Below are positions 12,169 through 64,000 of a DNA stretch of 64,000 nt, in pieces. Source of the DNA: Cupriavidus sp. D39 (GTDB lineage: Bacteria > Pseudomonadota > Gammaproteobacteria > Burkholderiales > Burkholderiaceae). The stretch is taken from assembly GCF_026627925.1 (NCBI RefSeq), contig NZ_JAPNLE010000005.1:40191-104190 (forward strand). Direction: 5' to 3'. Positions within the stretch are counted from its first letter, which is position 1, and each line of letters opens with the position of its first letter. Under the pieces are notes generated by a model that was not told the DNA's origin, did no database searches, and worked only from the letters and a program-made list of their open reading frames with translations. Both the position numbers and the translations under genes were made by a program.

Positions 12169-12684
12169 ATGAACGAGCGGGAGTTCGACAACCTGGTCAA
12201 CACGACACGCCTGACGCCGAAGAGCCGCGAAGCGGCGCGTTTGGTGTATGTGGACGGGAAGTCACCGAGCGAGGCGGGAATAGCAGTGGGTCTTTCGCCA
12301 CAGCGGATTTCGCAGATCCTTGCTGCTGTCAAGAAGGCTGAATCCGAACGACCGTTGTCCGTTGCTCCCAACACGCCCGTTACTCCGGTTGACGCCGTAA
12401 GGGCTAGCTACGCCTTTGCTGTCAAAGCTGCGCGTGATCTGTTCGGAGATGAGGCAACAATCAGGACGCCTGGCCCCGACGAGAGACTTGTTGGGAGGGT
12501 GGAAGCCCGCACCGATTTCCATCTGGTGCAGCATCTGGGGCGAAACGCCGTAGCAATCCACGATCTCGCGAGCCTGGACAGAGTGCCTCCTCTGGCCAGG
12601 TCCGTTGCGATCCAGTATCGCGCAGGAGCGGCTCAGGTCATCGACCGCGACCAAGTGCAAACGCGAGAATCTAACGTTCGTTGA
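12169..12684 (+). CDS. TrfB/KorA-type regulator fused to a KfrB domain
   Basis: 171 residues. Residues 1-52 match the TrfB/KorA DNA-binding fold (LVNTTRLTPKSREAARLVYV then the helix-turn-helix SPSEAGIAVGLSPQRISQIL). KorA is the global repressor of IncP plasmids. Residues ~107-160 are a KfrB-type domain (LVGRVEARTDFHLVQHLGRN...VAIHDL...VAIQYRAG). The fusion is compact, with only a short linker. It is the best candidate for the protein that reads the TTTCCAACGTTGGAAA operators and may regulate itself through the site at 11714. The link to that operator is inference. Confidence 0.82.
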   Translation: MNEREFDNLVNTTRLTPKSREAARLVYVDGKSPSEAGIAVGLSPQRISQILAAVKKAESERPLSVAPNTPVTPVDAVRASYAFAVKAARDLFGDEATIRTPGPDERLVGRVEARTDFHLVQHLGRNAVAIHDLASLDRVPPLARSVAIQYRAGAAQVIDRDQVQTRESNVR

Positions 12685-12919
12685 TATGGTTCCTATCTGG
12701 CTATCAACGACGATCAGAAGTAATATATAAAAAGTATTAAAGAAACATGGCGAGGCTCGCCGATATGACGCCTCCTTTAGCGAGAGCAAGGGCGCGAAGC
12801 CTTGATTGCGAGGTAGTGCTATTCGCGCGGCGGGCCGCCTCCGCGCGCTAACCCTGCACGCCGAAATGCGCGCGTGCAGTTTCCATGAGATGCAGTGAGT
12901 CAAACCAGGACAGTGAACT
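12685..12919 (+). other. leader region of the ankyrin-KfrB gene
   Basis: No convincing gene. A 34-codon frame from 12747 (MARLADM...) has a weak ribosome site. An eight-base inverted repeat (CTGCACGC at 12854-12861 and GCGTGCAG at 12872-12879) could form a hairpin ~40 bases before the next start codon. The AT-rich stretch 12715-12745 is a likely promoter. Confidence 0.4.
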
Positions 12920-14904
12920 ATGTCGGCTAAATCGGATTTCTTGGATGCTCTTGCGGAAGGGGACTTCGTCTCCGCCCGTAAGCTGATGGCGCAGCACAAG
13001 CTGGGCCCGAACACCCGCGACTGGACTCGCTCGCGCATGTCGCCGCTCGCCTATGCGATTCGCCACGGCGACAACGAGTTCGCGGCGGAGCTCGTGGCAA
13101 TGGGTGCCAAGGTGGACGAAGTGAGCCAAGGGGACACCCCTTGATTCTCATGGCGAACGTGGAAGGAGCGGAGATCCTGGCGAAGGCCGGTGCCGACGTG
13201 AACGCCACGATGCGACGCGATGCGGTCAACGTGGGCGTGAACAAGGGTGCAACGGCGCTGATCAAGGCCGCGCATAACAACAATTCCGAGCTGGTGGCCA
13301 AGCTGGTCGACCTGGGCGCGGATGTTCGCGCGACCGATCGGCTCGGGCGCACAGCGCTGCACTATGCGGCACGCAATAACCCGCAGACTGCCGATCTCCT
13401 GATCAAGGCCGGCGCTGATTTCCTCGCACGAGACCGTTTCGGTAAGACGGCTCTGTTTGTTGACATCGCGCCGAGCAACACCACACCCTCGCTCGCCAAC
13501 GCATCCCCCGCCAACAGCATCAGCAATTTCGTGAAGGACGCTACTGCGCGGAAGGAGATCGAGGCGACGAACGAGGGCTTAATGGCGGTGCCGGAGAACG
13601 CACTGGACGCAGAAACTGCGAGACGGCTGGTTCACGATGACGTGACGATGTACAAGGGGGTGTCCGATCCGACTGAAAGGCACTGGGCCGCCCTGGCGAT
13701 GGCCGACAATGCGGACAGGCAGCAGACCTATCGAGAAGCGCTACTGCAGGAGGCCCCGGAGTTAGCAATGGACCTGGGCGCGGCCATGTCGCGCGAGGCG
13801 GCCCTGGTGAGCGAAAAGGAAGAAAGCAAGGCCATCGAAGTCGATTCGATGCTACACGATCAGGTGGCTGGTTTTGATCACGTCGCTGGTCAGCGCATTT
13901 CGATCCCGCACGGTGACTTTCTCTACCTGGAAGGCACCGATACCTTGGGCGATAATTCGCGGGCCGCCGTCGTTCCGCGTGCGATCGACAAGCCCGTGGT
14001 TCGCTTCAAGGACGAAGCCGAAGTCCAACAGTACCTTGCGGAGCAGGGCATCGCCGAGCGAGAGCGCCGGGCCATCGATGCCTTCTATTCCCTGAGCGCG
14101 CTAAAGGACCGCCGGGCGCATGAGCAAATCACCGCGCCACCCGAAAACGCGATCGTCGCAGTCGAGCGCTCGGTGAGCCAAGAGGCGATCCGGCTGGACG
14201 AATACATTTCGCTCATCGAGAACGGTACGGACAACGGCCTCGATCTGGATGCGCGCGACGATGTTGAAGGCCCGTCGACATTGCTGCGCGGTAGATTCGT
14301 GCGCGACGCCGCAGGCCAGTATCGACGCATCGGGGAAGAGCGTGTGGCACTCGTGGACGAGGGCGAGAAGATCCGCTTCGTTGACAAGCAGTTCGATACG
14401 TTCCAGGCCGCCACCGAACTCGCTAGCGCAAAGAAATGGCAAGCAATCCAAGTCACGGGGACGGAGCAGTTTCGTTCCGAAGCGTGGTTTGCGGCGCGCC
14501 TCGCCGGGCTGGACGTGATCGGTTACGAGCCGAACGAGAAGGACATGGCCCGCCTCGAGCAGGCTGTCTCGCGCGGCCTGGCACAAGCTGGCGACGAACC
14601 TGCCCCCGAAGTGCAGGCGTCGCGCACGGAAGCGGAGAATCTGGCCCTCAAGGAGGGTCGCGGCCTACAGGGCCCGCTGGAGAGCGGCAGCTATAAGGGC
14701 AAGATCGTCCACGAGACCGCTCACCATGTCGTCCAGGACATTGGGCGCAACGTGGCCGTTGTCCACGCCAAGGACGGCCTGGACCCGGAGAAGTTGAAGG
14801 ATGCGCGGGAAAGCAGCCGCTCCGTCCGCGTCGACTACAAGAAGGGCCGGCCCGCTATCGCTGCAGACCGGGAGGTATCGCGCGAGTCTGGATTGTCGCG
14901 TTAA
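12920..14904 (+). CDS. polyvalent protein: ankyrin repeats, LPD7 and KfrB domains (frame break at 13137-13140)
   Basis: Two frames join if C4 at 13137-13140 is read as C5, giving QGDTPLILMANVEGAE inside an ankyrin repeat. Total ~661 residues. About 1-175 are four or five ankyrin repeats (GRTALHYAARNN, GKTALFVDI). The middle is helical and of unknown role. About 455-545 match LPD7 (GRFVRDAAGQYRRIGEERVA then GWT-like KKWQAIQVTGTEQFRSEAWF...GLDVIGYEPNE). About 585-640 are KfrB (GSYKGKIVHETAHHVVQDIG...VVHAKD). LPD7 and KfrB are known from polyvalent proteins of phages and conjugative elements, thought to enter the recipient with DNA. Ankyrin repeats suggest protein binding. Confidence 0.75.
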
Positions 14905-14931
14905 TCTGCGGGCCTAGGCTCCGATAGGCAA

Positions 14932-14986
14932 AATGACCGCGGGGGACACCAAACGCACGGCAGAATTGTGTTTGGTCGGGGTCATT
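14932..14986. repeat. nested inverted repeats in the intergenic region
   Basis: Outer arms AATGACC (14932-14938) / GGTCATT (14980-14986) enclose inner arms ACCAAAC (14948-14954) / GTTTGGT (14970-14976), with a 15-base centre. This could be a cruciform, a structured RNA or a protein-binding site. It is not followed by T residues, so it is not a simple terminator. Confidence 0.5.
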
Positions 14987-14991
14987 CCTCC

Positions 14992-15191: not shown

Positions 15192-15195
15192 GGCC

Positions 15196-16053
15196 ATGGC
15201 ACGGGACTACCGAGGCGATGTTGCCACGCGGCTGGCCGAGCTATTCGACGCAGGTGAAGTGCCATGGCACGGGCCCTATAGAACGATGGCCGGACTGCCC
15301 TTCAATCCCTCAACCGGAAAGCTCTTTCGGGGTGGCAACGCCGTCGCCCTGATGGCTTCGGGATACTCCGATCCGCGCTGGTGCACGTATCGGCAAGCTG
15401 CTGCGAATGGTTGGCACGTGCGCCAGGGCCAAACGTCGACTGTAGTCGAGTTCTGGAAGTATGCCGACGTTGTAGAGCGGCAGAACGAGAGTGGCGAGAT
15501 CGAGCGGGTGCGAGTGCCGCGCGAGCGCCCGACACCGCAATACGTGCATGTGTTCAACGTCGAGCAAATGGAGCGCGTGCCGCAGCTAGAGGTAGCGCGC
15601 GGACCGGAAGCAAAGCTTCGCGCGGAAGCAATCTTGACACGGGCGCACGTACCGATTTTCCACGACGGCGAACGGCAACCAATCTACGTCGAGGCACGTG
15701 ACGCGATCTATGCCAGACCGAAGGCCGCATTTGCCTCTGAGGACCACTACTATGCGGAGGCGTTGCGACTCGTCGGCGAGGCAGCGATGGCCCCCAACCG
15801 ATTGAACGTTACACAGAGCCTGCAGACTGTCGCGGAGCGCTCCTTCGCTACCGCTATGGCGGGCATGTTCGTGGCGGGTCGATTGGGCTTGGAAGCAAGC
15901 AACCTGCTGTCCCCCCTGTACTGCAGTCCTGGTCCGTATTGGTCAGCGCAGACAAGAACGCTATGTATCGCTGCGCACGTGAGGCGGAGCGCTTGGCTGA
16001 ATATGTGCTGGGACTCGAAGTGGAACGGGAGCGCGCTGCGGCTCCTGTGGTAG
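15196..16053 (+). CDS. ArdC-like antirestriction protein (frame break at 15911-15916)
   Basis: The N-terminal ~125 residues match the ArdC single-strand-binding domain: GEVPWHGPY, then NAVALMASGYSDPRWCTYRQ and VRQGQTSTVVEFWK...HVFNVEQ. ArdC proteins protect incoming plasmid DNA from host restriction. At C6 (15911-15916) the frame goes wrong. Reading C7 restores PPVLQSWSVLVSADKNAMYR and a helical end AEYVLGLEVERERAAAP typical of the family. The corrected frame has no stop before 16247, so another error near 16050 is possible, and I keep 16053 as a provisional end. The usual HExxH zinc site of the C-terminal domain is not visible, so peptidase activity is doubtful. Confidence 0.75.
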   Translation: MARDYRGDVATRLAELFDAGEVPWHGPYRTMAGLPFNPSTGKLFRGGNAVALMASGYSDPRWCTYRQAAANGWHVRQGQTSTVVEFWKYADVVERQNESGEIERVRVPRERPTPQYVHVFNVEQMERVPQLEVARGPEAKLRAEAILTRAHVPIFHDGERQPIYVEARDAIYARPKAAFASEDHYYAEALRLVGEAAMAPNRLNVTQSLQTVAERSFATAMAGMFVAGRLGLEASNLLSPLYCSPGPYWSAQTRTLCIAAHVRRSAWLNMCWDSKWNGSALRLLW

Positions 16054-16105: not shown

Positions 16106-17710
16106 ATGGCAGGTCCGAACAGCAGCAAGAGACTGGTCCTCTACGTTCCCTTTGCCGAGATCCAGCAAGCAAAGGATGCCGGCGCTGTCTGGGATAAGAA
16201 GAAGCGCTACTGGCATGTCTCCGCCGCTGGCGATATCAAAGCGGTAGGGCGCTGGCTCGAGAAGCCCCGAGAGCTATCGGAGAACGACATTATCGGACAG
16301 TTCGCAGATGCACTGCGTGACGCGGGTCTGGTGCTGGACGGCGCACCGGTGATGGACGGGAAGTGGCACCGAACCCCAGTGGAGTCGGCAAAGAACGCAA
16401 AGATGAAACAGGGCGTCTATAAGGGAAACCTTGACGCAGATAGGCCGAACGGCTTTATCGAGAACAAACTGAATGGCTTCTCTACGCCCTGGTCCGCCCG
16501 TGGTGTAATCCTCACGCCAGAACAGCGGGCCGAATTTGACCAACAGGCGCGAGCTCGTAGCGAAAGCCAGCAGCGGGAGCAAGAGGCGGCTCAGACGCGC
16601 GCTGCCGCTTACGCGCAGAAGAAGTGGGGGTCGAGCCGCGAAGAGGGCCGGCATCCGTATCTTGACAGGAAGCAGGTGGGCGCCTTTGGCGTTCGTGTGG
16701 ACGGCGGTGAACTGGTGATCCCTCTCGTTGACGCCGAGAACCGCCTCTGCAACGTGCAGCGGATCTTCTCGGACCAGGAGCGAGGAAAACTCTTCCTCAA
16801 GGATGCGCGAAAGACCGGGTGCTTTCACATCCTCGGCGATATCGAGACATCGCCCACAGTGCTTTTCGCCGAAGGCTACGCAACCGGGGCCAGCCTCCAC
16901 ATGGCCACGTCGCTGCCTGTCGTGTTGACGTTCGACAGCGGCAACATCGACGCCGTGATGCGGGCCGTGAGCGCGCGCGTGGAAGGCAAGGAAAAGATTG
17001 TGTGCGGCGACGAAGATGACCTGCCGCCTTCGAGGATACTCCGCCGGATTAACGGCATGCTCACCACAGAACGTACCTTCGCGAAGCTGAAGCTCAACAG
17101 TATCGACCCCGATGAGTTGAAGCTTGATGGCATCCCGCGACCAGCGCGACACAACCCGGAATGCACGCTCAGCCTTCGGGTTGAGTCGGGACCGCACGAG
17201 ACGCCTCGGATAGTGGGCGAGATTCGCAATGCGTCGACCGATGGCGTGCTGCGCGTCATGCTGAACAACGTGGGCCGAGAGAAAGCGCTGGCGGCCGCAG
17301 CGGAGCATGGCGCTACTGCGATCTTTCCACGTTTCGCCAGCCACGATGGATTCCCGACCGACTTCAACGATCTGCACGTGCGGGAGGGGCTACAGGCGGT
17401 CTCCGTCCAGCTGAAAAAGGTGATTCAGCGCGGACATGAGACCGCCCGCGTCGGGCATGCGGAGGTCGAGCCGGCGCGCATGCAAGTCTTCGAGCCTCAA
17501 CTCGGGGCGCGCTATATTGGCCAGGTGATCGAGATCTCGGAGACCCATCTGACGCAGCAGATCGGCCGGGGCATTGCTGTAAGGCACAACCGTGCGACAG
17601 TCCTCGGCGAAGCGGCGGTCGGGTTGACGGTGGAGATCGCGTATGCCAACGGCAGGGCGCGACTCACGGATCGAGCGAAGCGGGCCGTGGATAAAGTCCT
17701 CGAGCGATAG
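16106..17710 (+). CDS. DUF5710-Toprim primase-like protein with KfrB domain
   Basis: 534 residues. Residues ~8-52 are a DUF5710 module (RLVLYVPFAEIQQAKDAGAV, WDKKKRYWHV). Residues ~130-340 resemble the TraC/phage Toprim primase region: HPYLDRKQ...FGVRVDGGELVIPL, then the Toprim core VLFAEGYATGASLHMATSLP followed by a DSGN motif. PTDFNDLH at ~417 is the typical plasmid-primase end motif. Residues ~467-525 are KfrB (ARYIGQVIEISETHLTQQIG...VEIAYANG). TraC-type primases enter the recipient during conjugation to prime the complementary strand. Start supported by AAAAGGGGG. Followed by virD4. Confidence 0.82.
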   Translation: MAGPNSSKRLVLYVPFAEIQQAKDAGAVWDKKKRYWHVSAAGDIKAVGRWLEKPRELSENDIIGQFADALRDAGLVLDGAPVMDGKWHRTPVESAKNAKMKQGVYKGNLDADRPNGFIENKLNGFSTPWSARGVILTPEQRAEFDQQARARSESQQREQEAAQTRAAAYAQKKWGSSREEGRHPYLDRKQVGAFGVRVDGGELVIPLVDAENRLCNVQRIFSDQERGKLFLKDARKTGCFHILGDIETSPTVLFAEGYATGASLHMATSLPVVLTFDSGNIDAVMRAVSARVEGKEKIVCGDEDDLPPSRILRRINGMLTTERTFAKLKLNSIDPDELKLDGIPRPARHNPECTLSLRVESGPHETPRIVGEIRNASTDGVLRVMLNNVGREKALAAAAEHGATAIFPRFASHDGFPTDFNDLHVREGLQAVSVQLKKVIQRGHETARVGHAEVEPARMQVFEPQLGARYIGQVIEISETHLTQQIGRGIAVRHNRATVLGEAAVGLTVEIAYANGRARLTDRAKRAVDKVLER

Positions 17711-17748: not shown

Positions 17749-20268
17749 ATGATCCAAAGCAGAAAGCGGAATGACTCGGTTCGTCTGAGTGTCTCGGTCT
17801 TCTTCGTGTTCGCTCTCTGCACGATAGCGACGTGCTGGGTGGCCACCCAATATCTCGCTGCAATGCTCCGCTATCAGCCAGGCCTCGGGGAACCGGTCTT
17901 GGCGTTCCGCTCGGGAGTCAAGATCTATCAGCCTTTCTCAGGGTGGATATGGAGCTGGACATGGATGAACGAAACCGGGCGGTTGCAAGACTACGTTATG
18001 CGCACAACCGGTATCCACGTTGTGGGCATGTTCATGAGTGTCGCGTTTGGCTTCTATCTCTGGTACCGCCGAAGCCTCACCAGGCAAATTACCGAAGGGC
18101 TGCATGGCACCGCCAAGTGGGCGTCGCTCGAGGACGTACAGGCGATGAGGTTTGTTTCGTATGAAATGAAGAAGGGTAGCTGGCCGTTCTACAAGCGCGT
18201 TTCGTACACCGCGAACGGGGTGTATCTCGGGGCCTTGGACACGCCTGACGGGAGAAAGGTACTGAGATACGATGAGTCGGCTCACGTCCTTGCTTACATG
18301 CCCTCGCGTAGCGGCAAAGGCGTTGGTCTGGTCGTCCCCACGCTGCTCTCGTATCCCCACAGTACGGCCACCAATGACCTGAAGCGGGAGAACTTCGAGT
18401 TGACCAGTGGGTTCCGCCATTCGGCGGGATCATTGGTTATTTGCTTTGACCCGACTGGCACGGACGGTCGAAGCATCGATGGCCGCACGCCATTCCGAGT
18501 CGGATGCTCATGGAATGTGTGCGAGGAGGTCCGCGAATATCCGCACGATGTGCAGGACGCGCAGAACATCGCAGCCATTATCGCGGATGCCAACGACGAA
18601 GGGATTGGCAGTGACCACTGGATCAGTACGTCGTGGGGCCTTATAGCCGGGCTGATTCTTCACTGCAAGTACGCGGAGCGGGACAAGTCGCTTACAGGCG
18701 CCTTCAACTATCTGACGGACCCGACGTTTGAGGACCCAGAGCAGATGCTGATGGGCATGTTGAACGCTGAACACGATCCCACAGGTCACTTCGGCTGGAA
18801 AGACTCCAGCGGGAGAAGCACGAAGGTACACCCAGTTGTGGCAGCCGTCGCGCGTGCCAATCTGAACCGCGAGGCGAAGGAGCGGGCAAGCGTGCTGTCG
18901 ACTGCCGAAACCAAATTGGCGCTCTACCAAGATCCTGTCATCGCGCGGAACATTCGGCGGTCGGACTTCCGGATTCGGGATTTGATGAACCACGAAAAGG
19001 CCGTCAGCCTCTACCTGGTGGTGCCACCGTCGGACAAGAAGCGGCTGCAGCCGCTGCTGCGCATGTTCTTCACGTACCTGATCCGGCAGCTGACGCAAAG
19101 CATGGACTTTGCCGATGGCGAGAGCCTCCGCTCGTTCCGGCATCGTCTCTTGCTGTTGATCGATGAGCTCCCTTCCCTGGGAAAGATGGACCAGTTGCAG
19201 GACGGTCTGGGCTACCTCGCCGGCTACGGCATCACAGCCTTCCTCTTCGCTCAGGACACGATCCAGTTGGTTGACGCCTACGGGGAGAACCAGACCATCA
19301 CTTCGGGTTGCCAAGTCCGAGTAGCGAGCGCCCCAAACACGCTAGCCACAGCGAAGGACATTTCGGCAATGACCGGCATCACGACGGTAAAAAAACAGAC
19401 TGTCAACTACTCGGGCAAGCGCACTGCCGCCATGCTGGACCAGATGAGCGTCTCAGAGGATGACGTCGAACGCCCCTTGCTAACTGACGATGAGGCGATG
19501 CGGCTTCCGCGCGACGAGCTCATTATCTTCAACACGGGTCACAACCCGATTCGGGCCAAGAAGCTGCGCTATTTCGAGATGAAAGAGTTCAAGCGCCGTG
19601 CAGAGATTGAGAGCCCTACGCGGGTAGAAATCGCGGTGCTGAAAGACGGGCGTGTGAAAGCGCAGTGGTTCATGGTCCAATGCGAGCCGCGGGAGCAGGG
19701 CGGCATTCTGATCTGTATCAACGCTTACGATAGCTTCCCTGCAGTACGGGTTACGGTCAAGCAGGAGAACATCGAGGAGGACACCGTCGTTGAGGCCGAA
19801 TATGTCTTGCGCCGGCGCGATGGTGCGGAGTTCTCCGATGAAATTACGATCGATGATTCGCACTTCCTCGCCACCCCGCGCGATGAGGCGTTCAAGCTAG
19901 ATCCCCGGGAATACTTCGAGGTTCATTTCTCTCCTCTTGACGAGGAGGAATGGAAGGGCGCTAAGATCTGCGGCTTTGGACGCCGCCTCTCCGACTATGA
20001 GCGAGAGGCTCGCCGGAAGGTGAAGCAGCACTACCACCAACTCGAGGAAGACACTGGCAAGGTCGCCGACATTCGACTCGAGCGCGCCGAGCAAGATAGT
20101 CGGTATAGCGGCAACGTCGTTCTTGCCACTGAACACTACCTGGTGCTGGAGCGCATGGGCGATCTCGGAGCCGTCTCGCTTCATCGGTTGGCGCGCCTTT
20201 CTCATGTGCCGAAAGTGGGGGAGCGGGTCGCAATTCGCTACACCGGCAAGAAAGGGTCCGTAGCGTGA
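17749..20268 (+). CDS. virD4: VirD4/TraG coupling protein with C-terminal KfrB domain
   Basis: 839 residues. Two N-terminal membrane helices (~13-37 and ~88-106), then the TraG/VirD4 motor: GTAKWAS, Walker A-like PSRSGKGVG at ~184-192, a FDPTG motif, and Walker B LLLIDELPSLG at ~467. The coupling protein selects DNA-protein substrates and feeds them to the Trb channel. Ordinary VirD4 proteins are shorter. This one adds a helical stretch and a KfrB-type domain at ~784-839 (SRYSGNVVLATEHYLVLERM, GERVAIRYTG). The KfrB copy here is divergent: the usual Q-[DE]-x-G is ERMGD. The stop overlaps the next gene's start. Confidence 0.9.
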   Translation: MIQSRKRNDSVRLSVSVFFVFALCTIATCWVATQYLAAMLRYQPGLGEPVLAFRSGVKIYQPFSGWIWSWTWMNETGRLQDYVMRTTGIHVVGMFMSVAFGFYLWYRRSLTRQITEGLHGTAKWASLEDVQAMRFVSYEMKKGSWPFYKRVSYTANGVYLGALDTPDGRKVLRYDESAHVLAYMPSRSGKGVGLVVPTLLSYPHSTATNDLKRENFELTSGFRHSAGSLVICFDPTGTDGRSIDGRTPFRVGCSWNVCEEVREYPHDVQDAQNIAAIIADANDEGIGSDHWISTSWGLIAGLILHCKYAERDKSLTGAFNYLTDPTFEDPEQMLMGMLNAEHDPTGHFGWKDSSGRSTKVHPVVAAVARANLNREAKERASVLSTAETKLALYQDPVIARNIRRSDFRIRDLMNHEKAVSLYLVVPPSDKKRLQPLLRMFFTYLIRQLTQSMDFADGESLRSFRHRLLLLIDELPSLGKMDQLQDGLGYLAGYGITAFLFAQDTIQLVDAYGENQTITSGCQVRVASAPNTLATAKDISAMTGITTVKKQTVNYSGKRTAAMLDQMSVSEDDVERPLLTDDEAMRLPRDELIIFNTGHNPIRAKKLRYFEMKEFKRRAEIESPTRVEIAVLKDGRVKAQWFMVQCEPREQGGILICINAYDSFPAVRVTVKQENIEEDTVVEAEYVLRRRDGAEFSDEITIDDSHFLATPRDEAFKLDPREYFEVHFSPLDEEEWKGAKICGFGRRLSDYEREARRKVKQHYHQLEEDTGKVADIRLERAEQDSRYSGNVVLATEHYLVLERMGDLGAVSLHRLARLSHVPKVGERVAIRYTGKKGSVA

Positions 20269-21730: not shown

Positions 21731-21769
21731 AAGCCTAGCAAAGAATTCTGTACGATGGAAGGCTCGCAC

Positions 21770-24700
21770 ATGGCACGACGCAAACAACAACAGCAGCAGC
21801 AGCTGAATCAGCTAGCATTTGATTTTGGTTTTGACGAAACGGTAGAGGCAATTGAGCGCATCGATGCAGACGCGCGTGCCGATGAACTGGACCTTTTTTC
21901 TGGAGAGAATCATGTTGGTGGGCAAAACACAACCGCTGGAGATGGCGCAACGGGTGCTGCAAGCCAGCACACTGCAGTTGATCGCCAAGAGCCCGTACAC
22001 GATCTACGGCTGGAAGATCGTGGATCGCTGGGCGGTGAACGATCCGCAGAAGTTGTCGGCGCTGGAAGCGCAGGGCGAGATCCTGCTCCTGAGCAGGTTG
22101 CTCGAACAGCAGACGACCGAAATGGACGTCCTGACGACGCAGGCGGCGTTGGAGCGCCTGGCAGCGGGCGAGACGGAGTTCGAGATTCTGGCCAGCGCGC
22201 AGGTCCAGACCGAACTGTAAAGCCGACCGACTATGTCATCACGGACGCGGACGCTCTCGGCGAGGGTGGTGCCAAGGCCAAGTACCGCGATAACGTCGCA
22301 GCACTGCGTATTCTTTCCGCGCTGGAGAGCGAGGAGCGAGCCGCGACTGCGGAGGAGCAAGGGGCCCTTGTTCGGTACGTAGGATGGGGTGGACTACCGC
22401 AAGCGTTTGATCCGGCGAATTCGGATTGGGCGCGCGAATTCAACGAGCTCAGGGAACTTCTCTCGGGTCCCGATTATGATGCTGCGCGTCGATCCACTCA
22501 GGATGCGCACTACACCGCTCAACCGGTTGTCGAGGCGATCTACGCCGGCCTTGATCGCCTCGGCTTCCCCGGTGGCAAAATGCTTGAACCTGCCCTTGGC
22601 TCTGGCAACTTCGTCGGCCTCATGCCCCGCGAAATGCGGGAGAAATCCAAGCTGACGGGGATCGAACTCGATCCGACTACCGCCGCGATTGCCAAGCACC
22701 TCTATCCCTCTGCAACTGTCATTAATAAAGGCTTCCAAGAAGTCAGCATACCGCACGACTACTTCGATGCAGCCGTGGGTAATCCGCCCTTTGGCAATCA
22801 GAAGCTCTACGATCGCGAGCACAAAGAACTTGGCGAGTTCTCCATTCACAACTACTTCGTTGCGAAGGCGCTAGACAAGGTGCGGCCAGGCGGCGTTGTC
22901 GCCGTGGTGGTGAGCAACTATTTCCTCGATGCCAATCTCTCGACCGCGCGTGAGCACGTCTCCAAGACAGCGAACCTGGTCGGCGCTATCCGGTTGCCCA
23001 ACACCGCCTTCAAGCAGAACGCGCTAACGGAGGTGACGACGGACATCGTGTTCCTGCAAAAGCGGACCGCAGAGCAGGAGGCCGATCTCTCATGGGTGAA
23101 CGTCGGTACATTACCCGATGCAGAAACGGGCGTGCCCATTACCGTCAATCAGTATTACCTCGATCGGCCCAACATGATGCTTGGGGAGATGGCACTGAAA
23201 GGGACGATGTACAGGGGCAATACTGCCGCTCTTATCGCTCCTGACGGCCAGGATCTGCCCGCCGCGCTGGCCGCCGCAATCGAGTCGCTGCCATCAGGCA
23301 TCTATCGGCAGCTGGAGAAGACGAGATTCGAGGTGGTTCCTGCAGGCCGCGATGAAGAGAAGGTAGTGATCCCAGCGCACACGAAGGTTGGCGCGTACTT
23401 CGTGACGCCCGGCGGGGCAATTGCACGTCGTCTTCCCGATCTCTTGGACGAACAGCGCCACGAGCTCGTGGAACCGAAGAACGAGCGCGCCGGTGAACGG
23501 ATTAAGGGGATGGTTGATGCGCGCCTGTCGCTCCGGGCGCTGATGGCCGCCGAGCGGACTGACGCCACGGACGATGAACTGCAAGCCCTCCGCCGTGACC
23601 TCAATCGGGTCTACGATCGCTTCGTGAAGCAGCACGGTTTCGTCAGCAGCCAGGTCAACAAGCAGGCAATGGGTGACGATCCCGAGTACCCCTGTTGCAT
23701 GCCCTTGAAAAAGACTTTGATCGAGGCGTCTCGAAGGAAACCGCGCGCAAGAATGGCATAGAGGCGCGCGAGCCTAGCGCCACTAAAGCGGCGATCTTCA
23801 CGAAGCGGGTGATGGCACCCACGCGCGAGATCACGAGCGTGGCCACCGCCAAAGACGCTCTGGTCGTTTCGATGAACGAGCGTGGCCGCGTCGACCTGGA
23901 CCTGATGGTCCGGCTGGTGGGGAAGACTGAGGAAGCCCTGGTCACAGAACTGCGCGGGCTGATCTACCACAACCCGTTCCGAGATCGGTGGGAGACTGCT
24001 GACCAGTACCTGACTGGCAACGTCAAGGCAAAACTTACGGCTGCGAAGCTCGCCGCGGGGCAGGACGCGCGGTACGCAGCGAATGTCGACGCTCTTGAAG
24101 CCGTACAGCCGAAGGACATTGAGCCGGTCGACATCTCTATCCAGCTAGGTTCGACCTGGGTCCCGGAGCAGTACGTGAGCGAGTTCATCTCTCATGTCTT
24201 GGGAGGCGTGAGCCGCCAAATTAGCTACCAGGAGGCCATAGGGAAATGGTTGGTGAAGATCTCGCCGGCGGATCGCACGACCAACAACGTCCAGTGGGGC
24301 ACGGCAGAGGCGGGGGCCAATACGCTGATCGAGCGGATTCTTGAGAATCGCCCCATCGAGGTAAAGGATCTGATTGGTCGCGACGAGCGCGGTCCGATCT
24401 ACCGCACCAACGAAGAGAAGACGGCTGCTGCGAACCAGAAGGCTGAGGAGCTGCGACAGGCGTTTCTTGACTGGGTGTGGACCGACAAGGATAGAAGAGA
24501 CGCCCTGGCGAGGCTCTACAACGACCGGTTTAATACCGACGTGGCCCCGCGCTATTCCGGGGATCATCTGACACTGCCTGGTGCATCCGTAGACATCACG
24601 CTTCGTCCGCATCAGAAGGATGCTATCTGGCGCGGCGTGCAGGACGGAAGGGCCTTTTCGACCACGTGGTCGGCGCCGGCAAGACGATGGTGATCATTGG

Positions 24701-27700
24701 CGTAGCGATGGAGAGCCGCCGCATGGGCTTGGCTAACAAGCCCATGATCAACGTTCCGAACCACCTGGTTTTGCAATGGAAGGATGCGTTCTACGAACTG
24801 TATCCAAATGCGAATGTACTGGTGGCTGAAAAGTCGGACTTCAAGAAGGAGAATCGGGAGACGCTGTTCGCCCGTATTGCCACAGGGGATTGGGATGCCG
24901 TCATTGTTGGACATTCGAGCTTCAAGAAAATCGGCATGCCGGAGGAAACGCTCTCAGCCATCCTCTCGGAGCAGATTGACGACTTGACGGACGCGATCGC
25001 AGAAATCAAGCGCAAGAACGGCGATCGCATGACCATCAAGCAGATGGAGAAAGCCCGTGAGCGCATGACGCAGAAGATGGAGAAAATGGCGGATCGCGGC
25101 GGCAAAGACAAGGCCGTCACATTCGATGATCTCGGTGTCGATATGTTGCTCACCGACGAGTTCGATCTGTACAAGAACCTCTTCATCAATACGACGATGC
25201 AATCAGTCGCAGGCCTGGGTAATCTCACGGGTAGCGACATGGCTTTCGACCTGTTCGTGAAAGGCAGATACCTCGAGCAGCGCTACAACGGCCGTGGGAT
25301 GTATGGAGCGACAGGCACGCCGCTCTCCAACTCGATTGCCGAGATGTACACGCTGCAGCGCTACTTCCAGTATGAGGACATGAAGGATCGCGGCATCGTG
25401 CATTTCGACGCCTGGGCTTCGACCTTTGGCCAAGTGGTAGCCGGATGGGAATTGGACGCCACTGGCGTGAACTACAAGCTCAACTCGCGGTTCTCGAAAT
25501 TCCAGAACGTGCCCGAGCTCGTCAACATGTACCGATCATTTGCTGACGTCATTTTGCGAGATGACCTCGAGGAGCAGGCTCGGGCGCAAGGGAAACGGTT
25601 CCCTGTACCTCGTGTGGCCGGCGGGAAGTCCAAGAACATCGTGGTGGAGCGCTCGCCGCAGCAGGCGAAGTACATGGGCATTCAAGAGCGTCGCTATGAT
25701 TCAAACGGCCAGCCGTATCTGCGCGCAGACGGAAGCCCTGTGATGGGTTGGAACGAGGGATCGATCATCCATCGCATGGAGAACATGCCGAAAGACCCCC
25801 GAAAAGACAACCCGTTGAAGGTGACGAATGACGCGCGGAAGGCCGGTCTGGACTTCCGGCTGATCGATCCTAGCGTGCCTGATTTCGCGGGAAGCAAGGT
25901 CAATGCCGCTGTCGCAGAAATGATGCGGATCTACAAGAAGTGGGACGAACGGAAGGGTACGCAGGTCGTCTTCTGCGATCTGTCCACGCCCAAGCTCGGG
26001 AAGGGCGGGATGGCGCAAGCGGAGGCTTCACCAGTAAGGGACGATGACGCGGAGGAGATCGAGGACGAGGGTGCCACCATCTCGATGGATGACCTCCTCG
26101 CGACAGGCTCCTCGTTCAGTGTCTATGACGATATCCGTGCGAAGCTGATCGCGCGTGGCGTGCCGGCGGCGGAAATCCGGTATGTCCATGAGGCCAACAG
26201 CGACCTGCAGAAGGCGAAGCTATTTGACCAAGTGAATCGCGGGGAAGTGCGCTTCCTGCTCGGATCGACCGCAAAGATGGGGGCTGGGACCAATGTGCAG
26301 AAGAAGCTTGTCGCCGAACACAACCTGGACGCCCCCTGGCGACCGCGCGACCTCGAACAGAGGGAAGGCCGGATCATTCGCCAAGGTAACGAGTTCTATC
26401 AGGAAGATCCAGATGGTTTTGAAGTCGAGTTGATTCGCTATGCGACAAAGCAGACCTACGACTCGCGGATGTGGCAAACGATCGAATATAAGGCCGCCGG
26501 CATCGAACAGTTCCGCAAGGGTGGTGGTAGCCAGCGAGTGATCGAGGATATCGCGAGCGAGGCAGCAAACGCCGCGGAGATGAAGGCTGCGGCGACGGGC
26601 AACCCGCTGATCTTTATGCAGGTGCAGCTGTCGTCCGAGTTGCGGAAGCTTGAGGCCGTGCATGCGAACTACAAGCGCAACATGCACAGCATGGAAGGGC
26701 GTCTGCAATGGCTCGAGCGCGCAGAGGTACGTGCGTCGGATCGTATCGAAAAGCTGCAGGCCGAGATTGCTCTGCGTGACGGAAACACGACGGAAGAGTT
26801 CGCGTTTCAGATCGGGCAGCGTCGGTTCGGCAAGGACGACAAGGATGCATTGCTTTCCCATATCGGCGTGGCGATGGAATCGGCGTTGAAATCTGCGAAG
26901 ACATTTGCTTACGAAAAAGAGGCTCCTCAGCGGGTGGGGCTCTATCGAGGCTTCACCGTCGAGGCGGTTGCCGCAAAGGGAGCTCTCCAGTTTGTCATTC
27001 ATAGCCCTGTCTACGAGCGCCGACCGCCGAACCTTGCCTATGGGAAGAATGACAACTTCAGCGTCGACGGCTTCTTTAGGCGATTGGACAACGTTCTTGA
27101 CACGTTTGAGTCGTCGGTTGCGGACGCACAGTCTGATCTAGACAGGGAGGTGCGCGAGCGCACGAAGGTCAAGTCGGAGATCGGGCGGCCGTTCGCGGAC
27201 GAGGGCCGCTTGCTCGCGCTGCGCAAGGACGTGGCAGACGTTATGACAGAACTCAAGAAAATGCAGGCGGACTCTGAGTACGTGTCGAAGTGGACGCCTG
27301 CCAGTTGGGCAGCGGAGCGCGCCGGCGCCGATGCTCTGGCAGCCGAGACCGACAAGCAGCAAAGAGAGATCCAGGGCACGGTGACGCGCGTTGATGAAGC
27401 TGCCCGCCGCTTCCTGCAGGCGACCAAGGAACCAGCATCTACCCAACGCATCTTCGACAGTGCATTCGACTCACTGATGGAAATGGGCGACGGTCGCGAG
27501 GTGCAGACCATGCTGGTTGAGCGCATCAAGGAGGACAGGGCGCTCGCAGAGGCCGTGTCTTCGTATCCGGGCAAGTGGTATGCGACGCAAGAAATGCTAG
27601 ATGCCGCTGAATCTGTCACGCAGTACCAGCAGCAGGCCAAGGACCACGCGCGTCAGCTTGGATTCGACACAGCCCTCCCGAACCGTGGCGAAGGCCAGTA

Positions 27701-27899
27701 CATGGGGCCGTTTGTCGGTGAGACCGATCGCTATTTCCTGCAGGACGTGGGGCAACGGCGCGCAGTGATCCACGCGCGCGATGAGTTGCTGAACAAGGCT
27801 TTCAAACTCGGCGACAACGTGAGGGTGACGTATCGATTCGGCTCTGCCATGGCATCGCTACGCGATAGGCCGCAGGACGGAAAGGCGATTGAGCACTAA
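21770..27899 (+). CDS. giant adenine methylase-SNF2/DEAD helicase-KfrB protein (two frame breaks)
   Basis: Start ATG at 21770 with GGAAGG seven bases upstream. Two single-base losses (C4 at 23689-23692, T4 at 24655-24658) split it. Restoring them gives PEYPLLHALEKDFD and GRAFFDHVVGAGKTMV in one protein of ~2,040 residues. Domains: disordered N-terminus, an N6-adenine methylase (LEPALGSGNFVG motif I, GNPPFG motif IV), then a superfamily 2 helicase with GAGKT Walker A, DEFDLYKN motif II and LEQREGRIIRQGNEF motif VI, coiled coils, and a KfrB domain at the end (QYMGPFVGETDRYFLQDVGQ). Such methylase-helicase proteins are found in many conjugative elements, probably to modify or protect entering DNA. 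Confidence 0.85.
21912..22220 (+). CDS. overlapping gene nested in another frame of the methylase-helicase gene
   Basis: 102 codons from ATG, with GGAGAG just upstream, lying wholly inside the 5' part of the methylase-helicase frame. Third codon positions are mostly G or C here, whereas in the longer frame the same bases give a low-complexity Gly/Asp/Ala/Arg-rich linker with poor codon bias. The product is compact and helical (MLVGKTQPLEMAQRVLQAST..., IYGWKIVDRWAV...LSRLLEQQTTEMDVL). It looks like a real soluble protein. The longer frame has no ATG between 21770 and the conserved methylase region, so both frames seem to be used. Function unknown. Confidence 0.55.
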   Translation: MLVGKTQPLEMAQRVLQASTLQLIAKSPYTIYGWKIVDRWAVNDPQKLSALEAQGEILLLSRLLEQQTTEMDVLTTQAALERLAAGETEFEILASAQVQTEL

Positions 27900-27914
27900 A
27901 CGGAGGAGTGCACT

Positions 27915-29610
27915 ATGGACGGGTATTTCATCAAGAAGATCGGCGCGAACAAGGGGCGTCCCCGCGTTTGGCTGGAGGGGCTGCAGGCCGCAATCGCGGG
28001 CTTTGGCCCTGGCCAGCGCTACGACATCGAGGTGCGCGGCAGAACACTGGTGCTGCAGGCCAATCCCGACGGCACGCGTGTCGTTTCAGCCAAGACGATC
28101 GGCGAACGGATCAACCCTGTTATCGATTTGAACTCGCAGGCCCTTTTAGCCTGCTTCGATGGCATGGCCGCCGTTCGTGTGGTGGCCAAGCAGGGAGAGA
28201 ATGGCAGGGGGAGATCTACATTCTTCCATTGGCTTCGGAGCTCAAGAAGCAGGAGCGGCTTCAGCGATTGCGAGCAAAGCTGGAGGCCGGTGAACCGATC
28301 ACGATGGGCAGCCTCAGCCATGGGGGCGGAGTGATGAGCCACGCGCTGCATGCCGGCCTGCAGCGTTCTGGCGTCCCGGCGCAACTGGCGTTTGCCAACG
28401 AGATCCGCGAGGACCTTATGCAGCAAGCGTCGACGAATAACGATGCGTGGTCAAGCAAGACTGTCCCGTTGGTTGCGCCTATGCAGGAGCTAGCGTTTGA
28501 CGAGCGTGCAATGTCACACATCCCGAAGGTGGATGTGCTCGAGGCGGGGATACCGTGTAGCGGGGCCAGCCGCGCCGGAAAGGCAAAACGCGGACTGAAG
28601 CATGAGGCGGAGCACCCGGAGGTTGGACACCTGGTGGTGGGCGCTCTTGTCATCATCGCGAAAGTGAATCCGGCCATTGTCGTGGTTGAGAATGTCCCGG
28701 GAATGGAGAACACAGAGACCGCGTCCATTCTTCGCAATCAACTCCGCGATATGGGATACGACATTCACGAGCGGATGCTGAACGGCAAGGAGTGGGGCGC
28801 TTTGGAGCACCGCAATCGCTGGTGCATGGTGGCCGTGACGGAGGGCATTGAGATCGATCTCGAGGAGCTCCTTCCCCCTGACAGGCCCCCGCGAAGGTTG
28901 GGCGAAGTCCTCGAGGACATTCCGTCGGAGGACCCTCGGTTCAGGGAATACGGCTACTTGAAGGACAAGCTCGTTCGTGATCAGGCAGAGGGCAAAAATT
29001 TCGCCTTTAGCGTGGTCACGCCGGATAGCGACCACACCGGGACCATTAACAAGACGTACTCGAAAGCTCAATCCACGGGCACCTATGTCGCTTCACCGAC
29101 GGACCCCTCAAAGATGAGATTGCTCACCGCCGGCGAGCACGCATCGCTGAAAGGGGTGCCGCCCGCACTCATTGAGGGCCTTTCGAACACCATAGCGCAC
29201 GAAATGTTGGGGCAGGCGGTTCTGTACGAGCCCTTTCAGGATCTAGGCCAGCACATGGGTAACTCGATGCAGCGTCTGGTGGGCCGAGGCGGGATACCGC
29301 TGGAAGATCGCAAATTCCAGGAGGTGGCCGACGAGCTCAAACTTCCCCTGAGGTGGTCATCTTGGCTTCCGAAGTGGTGGAAGTGCTTTCCCGGTCGGAT
29401 TCTGAGAAGGGGCGCTACAAGGGCCAGGTTGTGGCCATACAGGGCAATCTCGTCATACAGGACGTGGGCCGTGGTTGCGGTGTTGTGCATGACGCCTCTG
29501 CCTTCGCTCGGCCTCCGAAGCTGGGAGCTACGGTACGCATCTCGTATGAGCGCGGACGTGGGCGTGCGGAGGAGCCCAACAAACAGCAAATGTCGCTCGG
29601 CCTGGTGTAA
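27915..29610 (+). CDS. C5 cytosine methylase with C-terminal KfrB domain (two frame breaks)
   Basis: The frame is broken at G5 (28207-28211) and C4 (29345-29348). One extra base at each gives NGRGEIYILPLASELKK and KLPPEVVILASEVVEV. The ~565-residue product has an unknown N-terminal domain (~1-130), then cytosine methylase motifs: AGIPCSGAS (motif IV, catalytic Cys), VVVENVPGM (ENV, motif VI) and LEHRNRWCMV (motif VIII). KfrB follows at ~487-545 (GRYKGQVVAIQGNLVIQDVG, RISYERG). It probably masks restriction sites on the transferred element. Ends just before a terminator. Confidence 0.82.
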
Positions 29611-29628
29611 GGACATTCTTCCGGTTCA

Positions 29629-29661
29629 AAAGGCACGCCATTGGGTCGTGCCTTTACTTTT
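29629..29661 (+). terminator. rho-independent terminator after the cytosine methylase gene
   Basis: Nine-base arms AAAGGCACG / CGTGCCTTT with a nine-base loop, then ACTTTTTT. Confidence 0.85.
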
Positions 29662-29862
29662 TTCGCCGGCGGCCGATATCCATAGGTAGCTCGATGTACC
29701 GTCTTTGTAACAAAAGGCTCGCACCTGTCGAGCATTTTCTATATACCGTCCATTTCAAAAAATGGATGGCAACTAGGGGTTGCCACCGGCGTGGGCACTG
29801 CCATTGGGAAAACGGTGGTGCCGTCCTCGGGATGGGGGAGCCGCGTAGAGAAAAGGATTCAG

Positions 29863-33558: not shown

Positions 33559-33607
33559 ACCCTGACTCCACCACTCTTTCTTGTTCGTTTTGCCGTGCGA
33601 TTCCCTG

Positions 33608-40160: not shown

Positions 40161-40168
40161 ATGTTCTT

Positions 40169-43890: not shown

Positions 43891-43931
43891 ATTGTTCCCT
43901 TCTGTGTTCTTCGTATGTTTATGTTCTGTGT

Positions 43932-47529: not shown

Positions 47530-47634
47530 TAGGGCTATCGCAGAACTCTGTCCGCGGCCCTCGCTCCAACAGGTACCTGGCTTCGATTAGACAAACTAGG
47601 TCGGCTTTGCCATACTCTGAATAGAGTGAAAATC

Positions 47635-47835
47635 ATGGTCACGTTAGCTCAATACCCTCAACTGCGAATGCTGGTCTGGAATCGTCCCGGTACAACCCGC
47701 GTGGATGATCGGGAAGCGTTCGCCCTCTATGAGGCTAATTGGCGACATGTGGATCAACAGCACATGACCCGTCCTGAGCGCGACCTTGTTCGCCGGCTGA
47801 CCAATCAATTCGGAAACGGGGTCCTTCTTGTTTAA
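47635..47835 (+). CDS. probable antitoxin partner of the nucleotidyltransferase
   Basis: 66 residues from ATG (a GTG three codons earlier is possible). Contains LVWNRPGTTRVDDREAFALY, then ANWRHVDQQHMTRPERDLVR and GVLLV at the end. Its stop overlaps the TTG start of the next gene by eight bases. A short gene of this type directly before AbiEii-like nucleotidyltransferases is a recurring arrangement, so it is probably the cognate neutraliser. This is inferred from context, not from a recognised domain. Confidence 0.55.
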   Translation: MVTLAQYPQLRMLVWNRPGTTRVDDREAFALYEANWRHVDQQHMTRPERDLVRRLTNQFGNGVLLV

Positions 47836-48853
47836 TCGAGAACATCACCAGCGGATCGCTAAACTTCTGTCCCAACTCGACGGTTCATTTTTGCGAGAAT
47901 GCGATACTTATTTTGGTGGCGGAACGGCTATTGTTCTTTCTCCGGGGGCCGATGAGTATCGCGAATCGGTCGACGTAGACTTTATGGTCGGTTCCTCCGA
48001 GGGCTATCGGAAGCTTCGAGAAGCCATCCGCGAAAACGAAGGGCTCCAAGGCGTTGCCGCGCAGGGTCAAAGAATTGAATTGCTACGCGATGTGCGGACC
48101 GACCAATATGGCGTCCGGACGTTTGCATCGATCGATGGCGTTCCTCTCAAGATCGAATTCGTTCATGAGGCGCGTATCAAGGTTGTTGGGGCGCCAAGCC
48201 CCCTGATGGGCGTGCCGGTCCTCTCGCGGGAAGACATGTATGCGGAGAAATTGCTCGCCAACGACGACCGCCAAGGCGACATCCAAAGCATGTATCGGGA
48301 CATCATCGACCTAGGCATGATGGTGGAGAAGTGGGGAAGTATCCCCACTGCAGCCGTCGAGAAGGCGATGGGCGCCTATGGGCAAGCCATCATTTCCTCA
48401 TTCGCGAAGGCCACGGAGAAGCTCTCTAGCGATCGGCCATTGATGCTGGAGTGCCTCTCCAAGATGAAGATGGCGGATGACCTCGCGGATCGCATCCCGG
48501 CGTTGCTTCAGGCCGAGCTCCTGCGCCTCCAACCGGAGCGTGAGCGGATTGCTCCACCGCCGCCGGCGGACGAGCTCATTGCCGCGTCACCCGACCTTCA
48601 GCAGTTTCTGGCCACCACGAGCCGGAGTGTCCAGCAGGGCAATTACGAATCCGGCCAATATGCGGGTCGCATCCTGTGGGGCAATGACAAGTGCTGCGTC
48701 CAGGATCTCGGACGCAACACCGTCGTTATCCACCCCACAGAGCATTGGCATGCTTCCCCGCCAGTTGGCACCTATGTCAAGGTGAAATACCAACACACCA
48801 TTGCCGATTGGAAGGCAGTCGACCGGGACTCGGACCGCTCCCACACTCGCTAG
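47828..48853 (+). CDS. AbiEii-like nucleotidyltransferase toxin with C-terminal KfrB domain
   Basis: TTG start, translationally coupled to the upstream gene. 341 residues. Residues ~28-50 contain the polymerase-beta-like nucleotidyltransferase motif (YFGGGTAIVLSPGADEYRES then VDVDFMVG, with GG and D-x-D). VPVLSREDMYAEKLLANDDR resembles the second AbiEii motif. Residues ~275-325 are KfrB (GQYAGRILWGNDKCCVQDLG, RNTVVIHPTE, YVKVKYQHT). AbiEii toxins transfer nucleotides to tRNA or other targets. Fusion of one to KfrB is unusual and ties it to the element's transfer proteins. Confidence 0.82.
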   Translation: MFNREHHQRIAKLLSQLDGSFLRECDTYFGGGTAIVLSPGADEYRESVDVDFMVGSSEGYRKLREAIRENEGLQGVAAQGQRIELLRDVRTDQYGVRTFASIDGVPLKIEFVHEARIKVVGAPSPLMGVPVLSREDMYAEKLLANDDRQGDIQSMYRDIIDLGMMVEKWGSIPTAAVEKAMGAYGQAIISSFAKATEKLSSDRPLMLECLSKMKMADDLADRIPALLQAELLRLQPERERIAPPPPADELIAASPDLQQFLATTSRSVQQGNYESGQYAGRILWGNDKCCVQDLGRNTVVIHPTEHWHASPPVGTYVKVKYQHTIADWKAVDRDSDRSHTR

Positions 48854-61949: not shown

Positions 61950-62020
61950 ATAGATGGATAAAACCAAGTCCATTACTTAGGATGGCTGCCGTCGGCGCCG
62001 CTAACCTCTACGGAGAAAAA

Positions 62021-62687: not shown

Positions 62688-62713
62688 GTCTCCCCGACGT
62701 ACCTCAAACAAGA

Positions 62714-62741
62714 GGGCCGACTGATCGTCGGCCCTTTTTTT
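62714..62741 (+). terminator. rho-independent terminator
   Basis: GGGCCGAC-TGATC-GTCGGCCC followed by seven T. It lies between this plus-strand gene and the convergent relaxase gene. Confidence 0.88.
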
Positions 62742-62743
62742 GC

Positions 62744-64000
62744 CTAACGACCGCGCCCTTGCGTCGGCTTACTCGAAATGCCGGCCTTGCCGTCTCGGTA
62801 GGTCACAGTAACGGTGCCCCCGGTCTCAGGTACGGTACGGAAGGCGGTCTTGTCGTGAATGACGTATTCATGACGACCGACCTCCTGCGCGATGTGCGTC
62901 GCCGTCTGAAACACCACCTTGCCTTTATAGCGCCCAGCTTGCGAGCTCACGTGTGCAATCTTCGCGTTGCTGTCCAGTGCACGCACTTCGTCCTCAATGG
63001 CCACTATCGGACGTTCGCCGTGCTTGCCAACAGCGTGCACCTTTCTTACTGCTGAGAGCTCATCTCGATAGCTTCGCTGCAGAGCTTGCAGCTCGAGGTT
63101 TGCTATCCGGATATTCAGTTGCGTAGCCAAGCGTACCGCCCGCCGTTTGAACTCGGCATCACCGCCGGTGAGGCGCACGCCCCTGGCCATTTGGTGTCCG
63201 CGTACTGCAAAGACATGAGCAATGCGTCGTCCGACACGTCCCTCCGACCATAGGTGACTCGTGAGCCCTCATCGTCAAATGCTTTGCCGCCATCGTTGAA
63301 GCTGTATAGCACCCGTCCGTTGTTGGAGACCTTCCAAATGAGGTTCTGGATCGTCCGTGCATGGGGGTCAGTCCGGTGTGGCTCGGCGGGACGAATGGCG
63401 TTCTCTTCCTGCTCGTCTTCCGGACGCCCTTCGGCAGGGGCATCGCCCACTATGCCCTTTCGCCGATCACGCCCCTCCTGGTACACCATGCCGCGCAGAG
63501 CACTGATGGCGGCCTCGTCACCCTGCTGCGCCAGATTCTCCACCCACGCCCGCCAACTAGGTAAGGCGGGGAGGAGGGCGCGCCTCTGCTCCCGCTCTCG
63601 TTTAATGGATTCCTTCAATTGGGCGCGCGTCCGCTCCGTTGTCATCTTCAGCAGCATGTAAGCCTGCTGCTTCTGTGGCTGGTTCAATGTTCGGCTTCCC
63701 TGAATCTCCTTCCGCCCGGCTTTGTAACGCGCTTCGAGCTCGACTAGCCGCCGCTTGTCCTCAGCGTACAGGGGGCAAGAGCCAGCGTGGCGCGAGCCCG
63801 CATTTCTTTCGCACGGACTTGCTCGGCGGCAAACCTGGCTCGAAGGTCGTCGCGAAGAGCCTTCCTCTCCAGGCGCCGCTGCAACCGCTTCTCAGGATCT
63901 CGCTTGTAGGTCCGCTCTGGCGCCGGCGTCCGCGCTTGGTCGCCGGCTGGTTCAAACTGGCCGAACCTCGCCTCGAGCTCCGCGCGCTTTAGGAACCGAA
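62744..64000 (-). CDS. relaxase C-terminal part with KfrB domain (two frame breaks, cut by the window edge)
   Basis: Reading in from 64000 on the minus strand: a highly charged helical region (RDPEKRLQRRLERKALRDDL), then with C5 to C6 (63771-63775) LYAEDKRRLVELEARYKAGR, then an LPD7-like region (LIWKVSNNGRVLYSFNDGGK) and with C4 to C5 (63180-63183) DTKWPGGVRLTGGDAEFKRR, followed by NIRIANLELQALQ. This order is known from TraI/MobA relaxases of conjugative elements, whose catalytic N-terminus lies outside. The end is KfrB (GRYKGKVVFQTATHIAQEVG, VTVTYRDG). About 415 residues are visible. It starts transfer by nicking oriT and travels with the DNA. Confidence 0.75.

Follow-up and report, generated by a model that had tools for sequence, protein, structure and literature searches.

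Why should one plasmid append the same small C-terminal domain to eight otherwise unrelated proteins? The question is raised by a stretch of 64,000 nucleotides from Cupriavidus sp. D39 (the window; positions 40,191 to 104,190 of contig NZ_JAPNLE010000005.1, here C5), where a sequence-only reading had placed a KfrB-type domain at the end of a regulator, an ankyrin-LPD7 protein, a primase, the coupling protein VirD4, two DNA methylases, an AbiEii-like toxin and a relaxase. The answer toward which we lean, if only slightly, is that KfrB and the short basic tail behind it form a two-part signal of the type IV secretion system (T4SS) in this plasmid lineage.

The KfrB domain and its tail

The PF18790 (KfrB) profile was run against the whole 7.74 Mb genome. 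Eight matches of 35.3 to 59.6 bits exceeded the Pfam cut-off of 25 bits, all inside the window (C5:40191-104190), seven on the plus strand and one, that of the relaxase, on the minus strand. No further match in the genome passed the cut-off, the next best (12.4 bits) lying on a different contig. Among 14 control genomes, matches at E <= 10 were found in four and matches over the cut-off in none; the eight matches are therefore not due to chance. This search had been proposed by the sequence-only reading, which allowed that most copies might fall below threshold; all eight lie above it, and the claim of a common C-terminal domain stands.

Several details had to be amended. Pfam identifies six carriers: the KorA/TrfB regulator, the ankyrin-LPD7 protein, a DUF5710/Toprim-like protein, VirD4, the helicase end of a methylase-helicase, and AbiEii. 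The two remaining copies go with a C-5 cytosine methylase and a TraI/MobP relaxase, both encoded by genes split over frames. The relaxase copy is present, but its location is corrected to the minus strand, in the open reading frame (ORF) 62744-63190. The cytosine methylase copy is likewise present, but not in the frame of the methylase ORF, and the gene of the adenine methylase-helicase is spread across three ORFs. KfrB on the "primase" was confirmed, whereas Toprim stays below its cut-off and the label comes from the names of a relative's homologues.

A feature absent from the earlier reading is the arginine-ended tail. Every carrier except VirD4 continues past KfrB, mostly for 9-20 residues. 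Five named plasmid records, from Cupriavidus basilensis, Paraburkholderia, Burkholderia and Methylovorus, carry full-length relatives of VirD4; in them, arginine is the last residue of 29 of 39 KfrB genes (0 of 5 for VirD4, 29 of 34 for the others) against 44 of 402 genes without KfrB. These 441 annotated genes are those of the record parts compared, excluding resistance-gene lines, an IS3 transposase, the 189-base coding sequence that opens locus L040 and any coding sequence truncated at the end of a stretch; a B. vietnamiensis regulator that is separate from its KfrB was scored as KfrB-negative. The last 12 residues have a mean net charge of +1.7 in 38 KfrB genes versus +0.3.

The carriers were checked with a KfrB profile built from 82 in-frame domains; it retained every carrier named here and additionally detects the Methylovorus relaxase (arginine-ended, and also a Pfam match) and a 332-residue frame of genome G034. 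In-frame sequences likewise underlie the tree, the orthologue comparison and the structure alignments. In a wider set, arginine ends 67 of 78 carriers once VirD4 and the cytosine methylases are set aside, compared with 0 of 9 VirD4 proteins and 0 of 4 cytosine methylases, and ends of the form [ILVFM]-x-R occur in 38 of the 78 against 8 of 403 other genes; the carrier sets contain near-copies, by which the Fisher significance of the excess is overstated. This set omits the loci of KfrB-sparse genomes, the Methylovorus relaxase, the VirD4 proteins of L040 and L105, and seven other proteins, five with an arginine end (the L041 AbiEii, the L046 double-KfrB protein, regulator fragments of L044 and L101, and a helicase fragment of L089) and two without (L100, L113); adding all seven by hand gives 72/85. 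Arginine is also the last residue in 22 of the 24 database homologues retrieved for the regulator (18 matches) and the primase (six matches), and in 8 of 9 non-VirD4 KfrB proteins near 80 VirD4 loci, which include Acidobacteriota and Gemmatimonadota.

Across 174 orthologue pairs, from which pairs more than 85% identical were excluded, mean identity is 48% in the domain, 10-32% at tail positions -11 to -2, and 75% at the last residue. Since inheritance alone would not preserve a single terminal residue in an otherwise scrambled tail, the last residue is under selection.

Two side observations concern the tail. The cytosine methylases of the window, L045, L093 and L214 end after KfrB in QMSLGLV, QMSLSL, QLALGL and QLALGL, which we take to resemble the sliding-clamp binding hexapeptide QLxLxL. 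Moreover, a DUF5710 protein of Acidovorax plasmid pACP4.3 (L214:8298-11225) lacks KfrB and has an arginine tail; perhaps the tail is not confined to proteins that bear the domain.

A candidate two-part secretion signal

In the proposed mechanism, KfrB, a small OB-type barrel, and the loose basic tail, mostly arginine-ended, would be the two halves of a T4SS signal, the coupling ATPase VirD4 docking the barrel and engaging the tail end. The plasmid would fuse this signal to proteins needed on arrival in a new cell: the relaxase on its DNA, the primase, two methylases against restriction, the LPD7 protein and the AbiEii toxin; the KorA-type repressor in this set could curb zygotic expression. 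In most members of the lineage, VirD4's own tail-less, altered KfrB may act on the receiving side. The common co-transfer signal suggested by the earlier reading gains support because the tag sits on the relaxase, an obligatory T4SS substrate, because KfrB is associated with T4SS contigs (VirD4 is on 26 of 41 KfrB contigs, by hand tally), and because the tail would supply the second half.

In the relaxase of C. basilensis pRK1-3 the order is Relaxase, TraI_middle, LPD7, KfrB and tail, and in three IncP-type relaxases scanned it is Relaxase, TraI_middle, LPD7, TraI-like_C and tail. TraI-like_C thus takes the same slot after LPD7 (3/3), and five of six aligned TraI-like_C C-termini end in arginine. 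Of eight relaxases compared that lack KfrB, one (L191) is truncated, and six of the other seven end in arginine. The end module is therefore exchangeable, with the arginine end mostly kept, on the one certain T4SS substrate. No homology between the two modules was detected: KfrB and TraI-like_C (PF22287) align with an hhalign probability of 2-3%, and no PF22287 match was found on the pRK1-3 relaxase. Where a solo KfrB accompanies such a relaxase, both end in GRSR in L114 and L165, and their ends differ in L112 and L157 (2/4 elements shared).

Statements from the literature rest here on the available parts of the sources cited and of PMC2848598, PMC5923241, PMC6509941, PMC7783346, PMC5675462, PMC11288057 and PMC8124265. 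Signals of T4SS vary and are short; Harms 2017 describes them as "notoriously difficult to predict", and the F conjutome paper judges similarly. A tested precedent is BID plus a positive tail, found on Bartonella Beps, rhizobial relaxases, VbhT and PezT/Zeta-BID toxins, with VirD4 as the proposed reader. Like BID, KfrB is a small C-terminal domain with a basic tail, and it too is found on relaxases and toxins encoded by conjugative plasmids that have VirD4; on C5, the relaxase and AbiEii are carriers and T4SS genes are present. Unlike BID, which is an elongated helical domain, KfrB is modelled with five strands and an OB-like fold; its tail tends to end in one arginine, the regulator, the primase and the methylases are carriers as well, and in one lineage VirD4 bears a copy; transfer is known for BID only.

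The KfrB domain has about 54 residues. An OB-like fold is the best match of the predicted model, with cold-shock, EF-P/IF5A and RPA domains as weaker structural neighbours. The model agrees with the one solved relative found, a five-stranded OB barrel: the C-terminal domain of the gonococcal zeta-1 toxin (PDB 6EPG/6EPH/6EPI), which is a relative of KfrB and is described, in the text available, as an OB fold with no function given. This toxin is encoded on a conjugative plasmid, also ends in arginine, and belongs to another toxin family. A second comparison is the solo KfrB/TraO protein of IncP plasmids, whose gene lies in a kfrA-kfrB-kfrC operon. It has the same Pfam domain (75.3 bits in the IncP-type pRK1-5) and, in two examples, an arginine-ended tail, but no enzyme is attached, it is annotated as a plasmid survival protein, and one version, in three genomes, ends in RGRSM.

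Several points weigh against a two-part signal. No transfer experiment on any KfrB protein was found in the portions of the literature available, and the solo IncP KfrB is listed there as a partitioning or stability gene and not as a substrate. Eleven of the 78 carriers lack the arginine end, including the window's helicase copy, as do all four cytosine methylases. In KfrB-sparse elements it is found at only 18 of 30 loci (23 of 35 rows, less five rows of G034 and G177 counted elsewhere), above the 11% background but less constant; of the 12 remaining loci, three represent one identical IncP protein and one (L083) is a doubtful match. In L033, L034, L035 and L082, KfrB is not the last part of the protein. 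Nor are tail ends significantly more alike within a plasmid (0.464 versus 0.408 when shuffled, with 181 of 2000 shuffles as high), and within-plasmid resemblance was rejected on this ground.

The lower constancy in sparse elements slightly reduced our estimate of a wider reading, in which KfrB plus an arginine tail would serve P-type conjugation in general as a T4SS export signal, and plasmids would send a starter kit of repressor, primase, methylases and toxin along with their DNA; this is possible, but we would sooner doubt it. Equally tentative are its corollaries, that the zeta-1 toxin carries the signal and that the coupling protein of one lineage took a tail-less, degenerate copy as its dock. 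Were the domain and its arginine-ended tail confirmed as a signal, candidate co-transferred proteins could be listed from sequence alone, a plasmid domain without an assigned role would become a testable export module, and a role would be offered for the OB domain of the structurally solved zeta-1 toxin.

Descent of the copies and rival explanations

The density of KfrB, taken earlier as unusual for one element, proves to be a trait of the plasmid lineage: the five named records hold 5, 9, 9, 9 and 13 matches, all over the cut-off. At the family level, 23 of 200 genomes pass it, several with contigs of 4-13 matches; at the class and phylum levels, 8 of 369 and 5 of 398 have matches (own genome included in all three), and class and phylum genomes other than our own have 1-3 matches each. 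A double-KfrB protein of about 350-480 residues follows the regulator in the relatives L043, L044, L045, L046, L094 and L098, whereas neither the window nor pRK1-3 showed one.

A tree of the copies had also been suggested, and in a tree of 82 copies they cluster by carrier. Only 15 changes are required by carrier class (minimum 9; shuffled mean 51.2, with 0 of 200 as low), against 56 by plasmid, so the tags are old; most were inherited along with the protein that bears them, and some were swapped. The alignment has 68 columns, including some of the tail, and many forks are left open; the window's primase and helicase copies are placed away from their own carrier class. These results bear on the view that KfrB has no shared function and is a fusion-prone module shuffled among neighbouring genes. 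Polyvalent elements do recombine domains freely (Iyer 2017, PMC5512222), but copies that stay with their orthologues across plasmids, and a tail end under selection, make this view highly improbable.

The copy on VirD4 differs from the rest. It ends 0-3 residues from the C-terminus and has no tail; the glutamine invariant in other copies (73/73) is kept in 3 of 9, and the glycine three positions further in 2 of 9 versus 66 of 73 elsewhere, in a loop whose alignment is uncertain. A model of the VirD4 C-terminal region (242 residues, three sequences, pLDDT 78.9) predicts that KfrB is preceded by a beta-rich part and a helix, and gave no structural match under E 0.001, the best rows being zeta-1 toxin chains. 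This copy is central to an explanation by homotypic docking, in which KfrB domains would pair and a KfrB ring on the VirD4 hexamer would catch KfrB-bearing cargo. Twelve distinct elements carry at least four copies on one contig, and VirD4 is indeed tagged in 10 of them; among the 80 VirD4 loci of named genomes it is tagged only in L105, the nearest relative (55% identity). However, pACP4.3 (10 copies over the cut-off) and G034:C39 (six copies) are KfrB-rich with an untagged VirD4, hence a KfrB-rich plasmid can do without a tagged one; IncP-type pRK1-5 has one solo KfrB, its TraG being a distinct protein of ordinary length, and the lack of the glutamine in most VirD4 copies also speaks against pairing. 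The like-by-like recognition by VirD4 suggested earlier, as a form of common docking, is thereby weakened, and we consider it unlikely.

The fold invites a different explanation, that the OB barrel tethers the carriers to nucleic acid, holding them on the plasmid or the leaving single strand, to travel or to act. The OB fold with its weaker structural neighbours, the DNA enzymes that make up most of the carriers and the place of kfrB in the IncP operon are consistent with such a tether, which nevertheless explains neither the residue kept behind a scrambled tail nor why VirD4 and toxins bear copies; it has a low probability in our judgement. A further explanation is a scaffold tying carriers to the partition apparatus or to KfrA-KfrC, gathering them at the plasmid or the transfer pore but not exporting them. 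RA3 KfrC binds KorB (ParB), KfrA, VirD4 and VirB4, and kfrB adjoins kfrC in pRK1-5 and a Pseudomonas plasmid; on the other hand, the tail is given no role, and no KfrC label was seen in the C5-type plasmid stretches examined, where no search aimed at KfrC was made. As an alternative to export we regard this scaffold as quite improbable. It need not exclude export, because RA3 KfrC, whose gene adjoins kfrB in IncP operons, binds both VirD4 and KorB.

The description of KfrB as an established phage polyvalent domain was not borne out. The string "kfr" is absent from the main text of Iyer 2017, the founding paper on polyvalent proteins (PMC5512222; supplement not searched), and "KfrB domain" and "PF18790" had no match in the literature searched. 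Against phages, tblastn matches of the KfrB primase stop by residue 504, before KfrB, among 20 listed of 92 records; with limited sensitivity, solo KfrB found no phage match and the best KfrB matches in PHROGs had E 0.028 and 0.036. The phage link was dropped on these grounds. On this conjugative element, the ankyrin-LPD7-KfrB protein and the regulator each combine disparate domains in a single polypeptide, as polyvalent proteins do, and so, by length and product name, does the methylase-helicase that relatives encode as one gene.

Plasmid C5 and neighbouring genes

Contig C5 (104,190 bases) is largely collinear with pRK1-3. It encodes ParA/ParB and, by match to pRK1-3, trb/T4SS and pil genes. 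It is probably a circular plasmid, because the relaxase gene runs across the contig ends: residues 1-298 match at the opposite end of C5 (tblastn with the pRK1-3 relaxase). That it is of Cupriavidus type is suggested by the regulator of a same-genus genome, which is identical to a protein named Cupriavidus campinensis. No overlap of the contig ends was seen. Among 61 genes common to C5 and pRK1-3, nine match in at least two frames, in pieces 84-100% identical; one of the nine is interrupted by an insertion of about 8 kb, and the other splits may reflect sequencing error or decay. In relatives, the methylase-helicase is a single protein of 1851-1941 residues (1851 in L043), judged by length and product name, and in L093 the cytosine methylase and KfrB are joined in one 588-residue frame. 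The features are collected in Table 1.

Table 1. KfrB carriers of the window with their KfrB copies and tails (window positions).
Feature	Position	Strand	Evidence
KorA/TrfB-like regulator with C-terminal KfrB	12169..12684	+	Pfam KORA 27.8 bits, KfrB 41.3 bits
KfrB copy 1 (regulator)	12490..12642	+	43.5 bits
Regulator tail, 13 residues, Arg end	12643..12681	+	
Ankyrin-LPD7-KfrB protein	13141..14904	+	LPD7 57.5 bits, Ank, KfrB 43.8 bits
KfrB copy 2 (ankyrin-LPD7)	14689..14850	+	48.1 bits
Ankyrin-LPD7 tail, 13 residues, Arg end	14863..14901	+	
DUF5710/Toprim-like primase with KfrB	16106..17710	+	DUF5710 47.5, KfrB 52.5 bits; Toprim_3 sub-threshold (20.2 of 27.2)
KfrB copy 3 (primase)	17510..17668	+	57.1 bits
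Primase tail, 13 residues, Arg end	17669..17707	+	
VirD4/TraG coupling protein, KfrB flush with C-terminus	17749..20268	+	T4SS-DNA_transf 279.5, KfrB 39.8 bits
KfrB copy 4 (VirD4), tail length 0	20101..20265	+	45.5 bits
Methylase-helicase polyvalent protein, ORFs 21755-23761, 23695-24693, 24666-27899	21755..27899	+	N6_Mtase/Eco57I, Helicase_C
KfrB copy 5 (helicase end)	27696..27848	+	43.8 bits
Helicase tail, 15 residues, His end (exception)	27852..27896	+	
C-5 cytosine methylase ORF, KfrB in another frame	27908..29689	+	DNA_methylase 89.1 bits
KfrB copy 6 (cytosine methylase)	29413..29571	+	58.2 bits
Cytosine methylase tail, 13 residues, QxxLxL-like end, not Arg	29569..29607	+	
AbiEii-type nucleotidyltransferase toxin with KfrB	47828..48853	+	AbiEii 70.8, KfrB 31.6 bits
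KfrB copy 7 (AbiEii)	48656..48799	+	35.3 bits
AbiEii tail, 14 residues, Arg end	48809..48850	+	
TraI/MobP relaxase, residues 300-719, three pieces in different frames	62747..63998	-	tblastn with pRK1-3 relaxase
KfrB copy 8 (relaxase)	62774..62932	-	59.6 bits
Relaxase tail, 9 residues, Arg end	62747..62773	-	

Other genes of the window are noted briefly. An Rfam scan of the window gave 0 matches. An ArdC-type antirestriction protein without KfrB is encoded at 15196-16053 on the plus strand, its metallopeptidase part scoring just below the Pfam cut-off. A defence-like island occupies 32686-44202 on the minus strand, with an Mrr nuclease, a PglZ-like fragment, a large ATPase, an SNF2 helicase (333 bits to BrxHI) and a split HmaB-like methylase. 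At 47626-47835, plus strand, a 69-residue ORF overlaps the start of AbiEii and is by position a candidate antitoxin; short genes occupy a like position before AbiEii in L086, L088 and L089.

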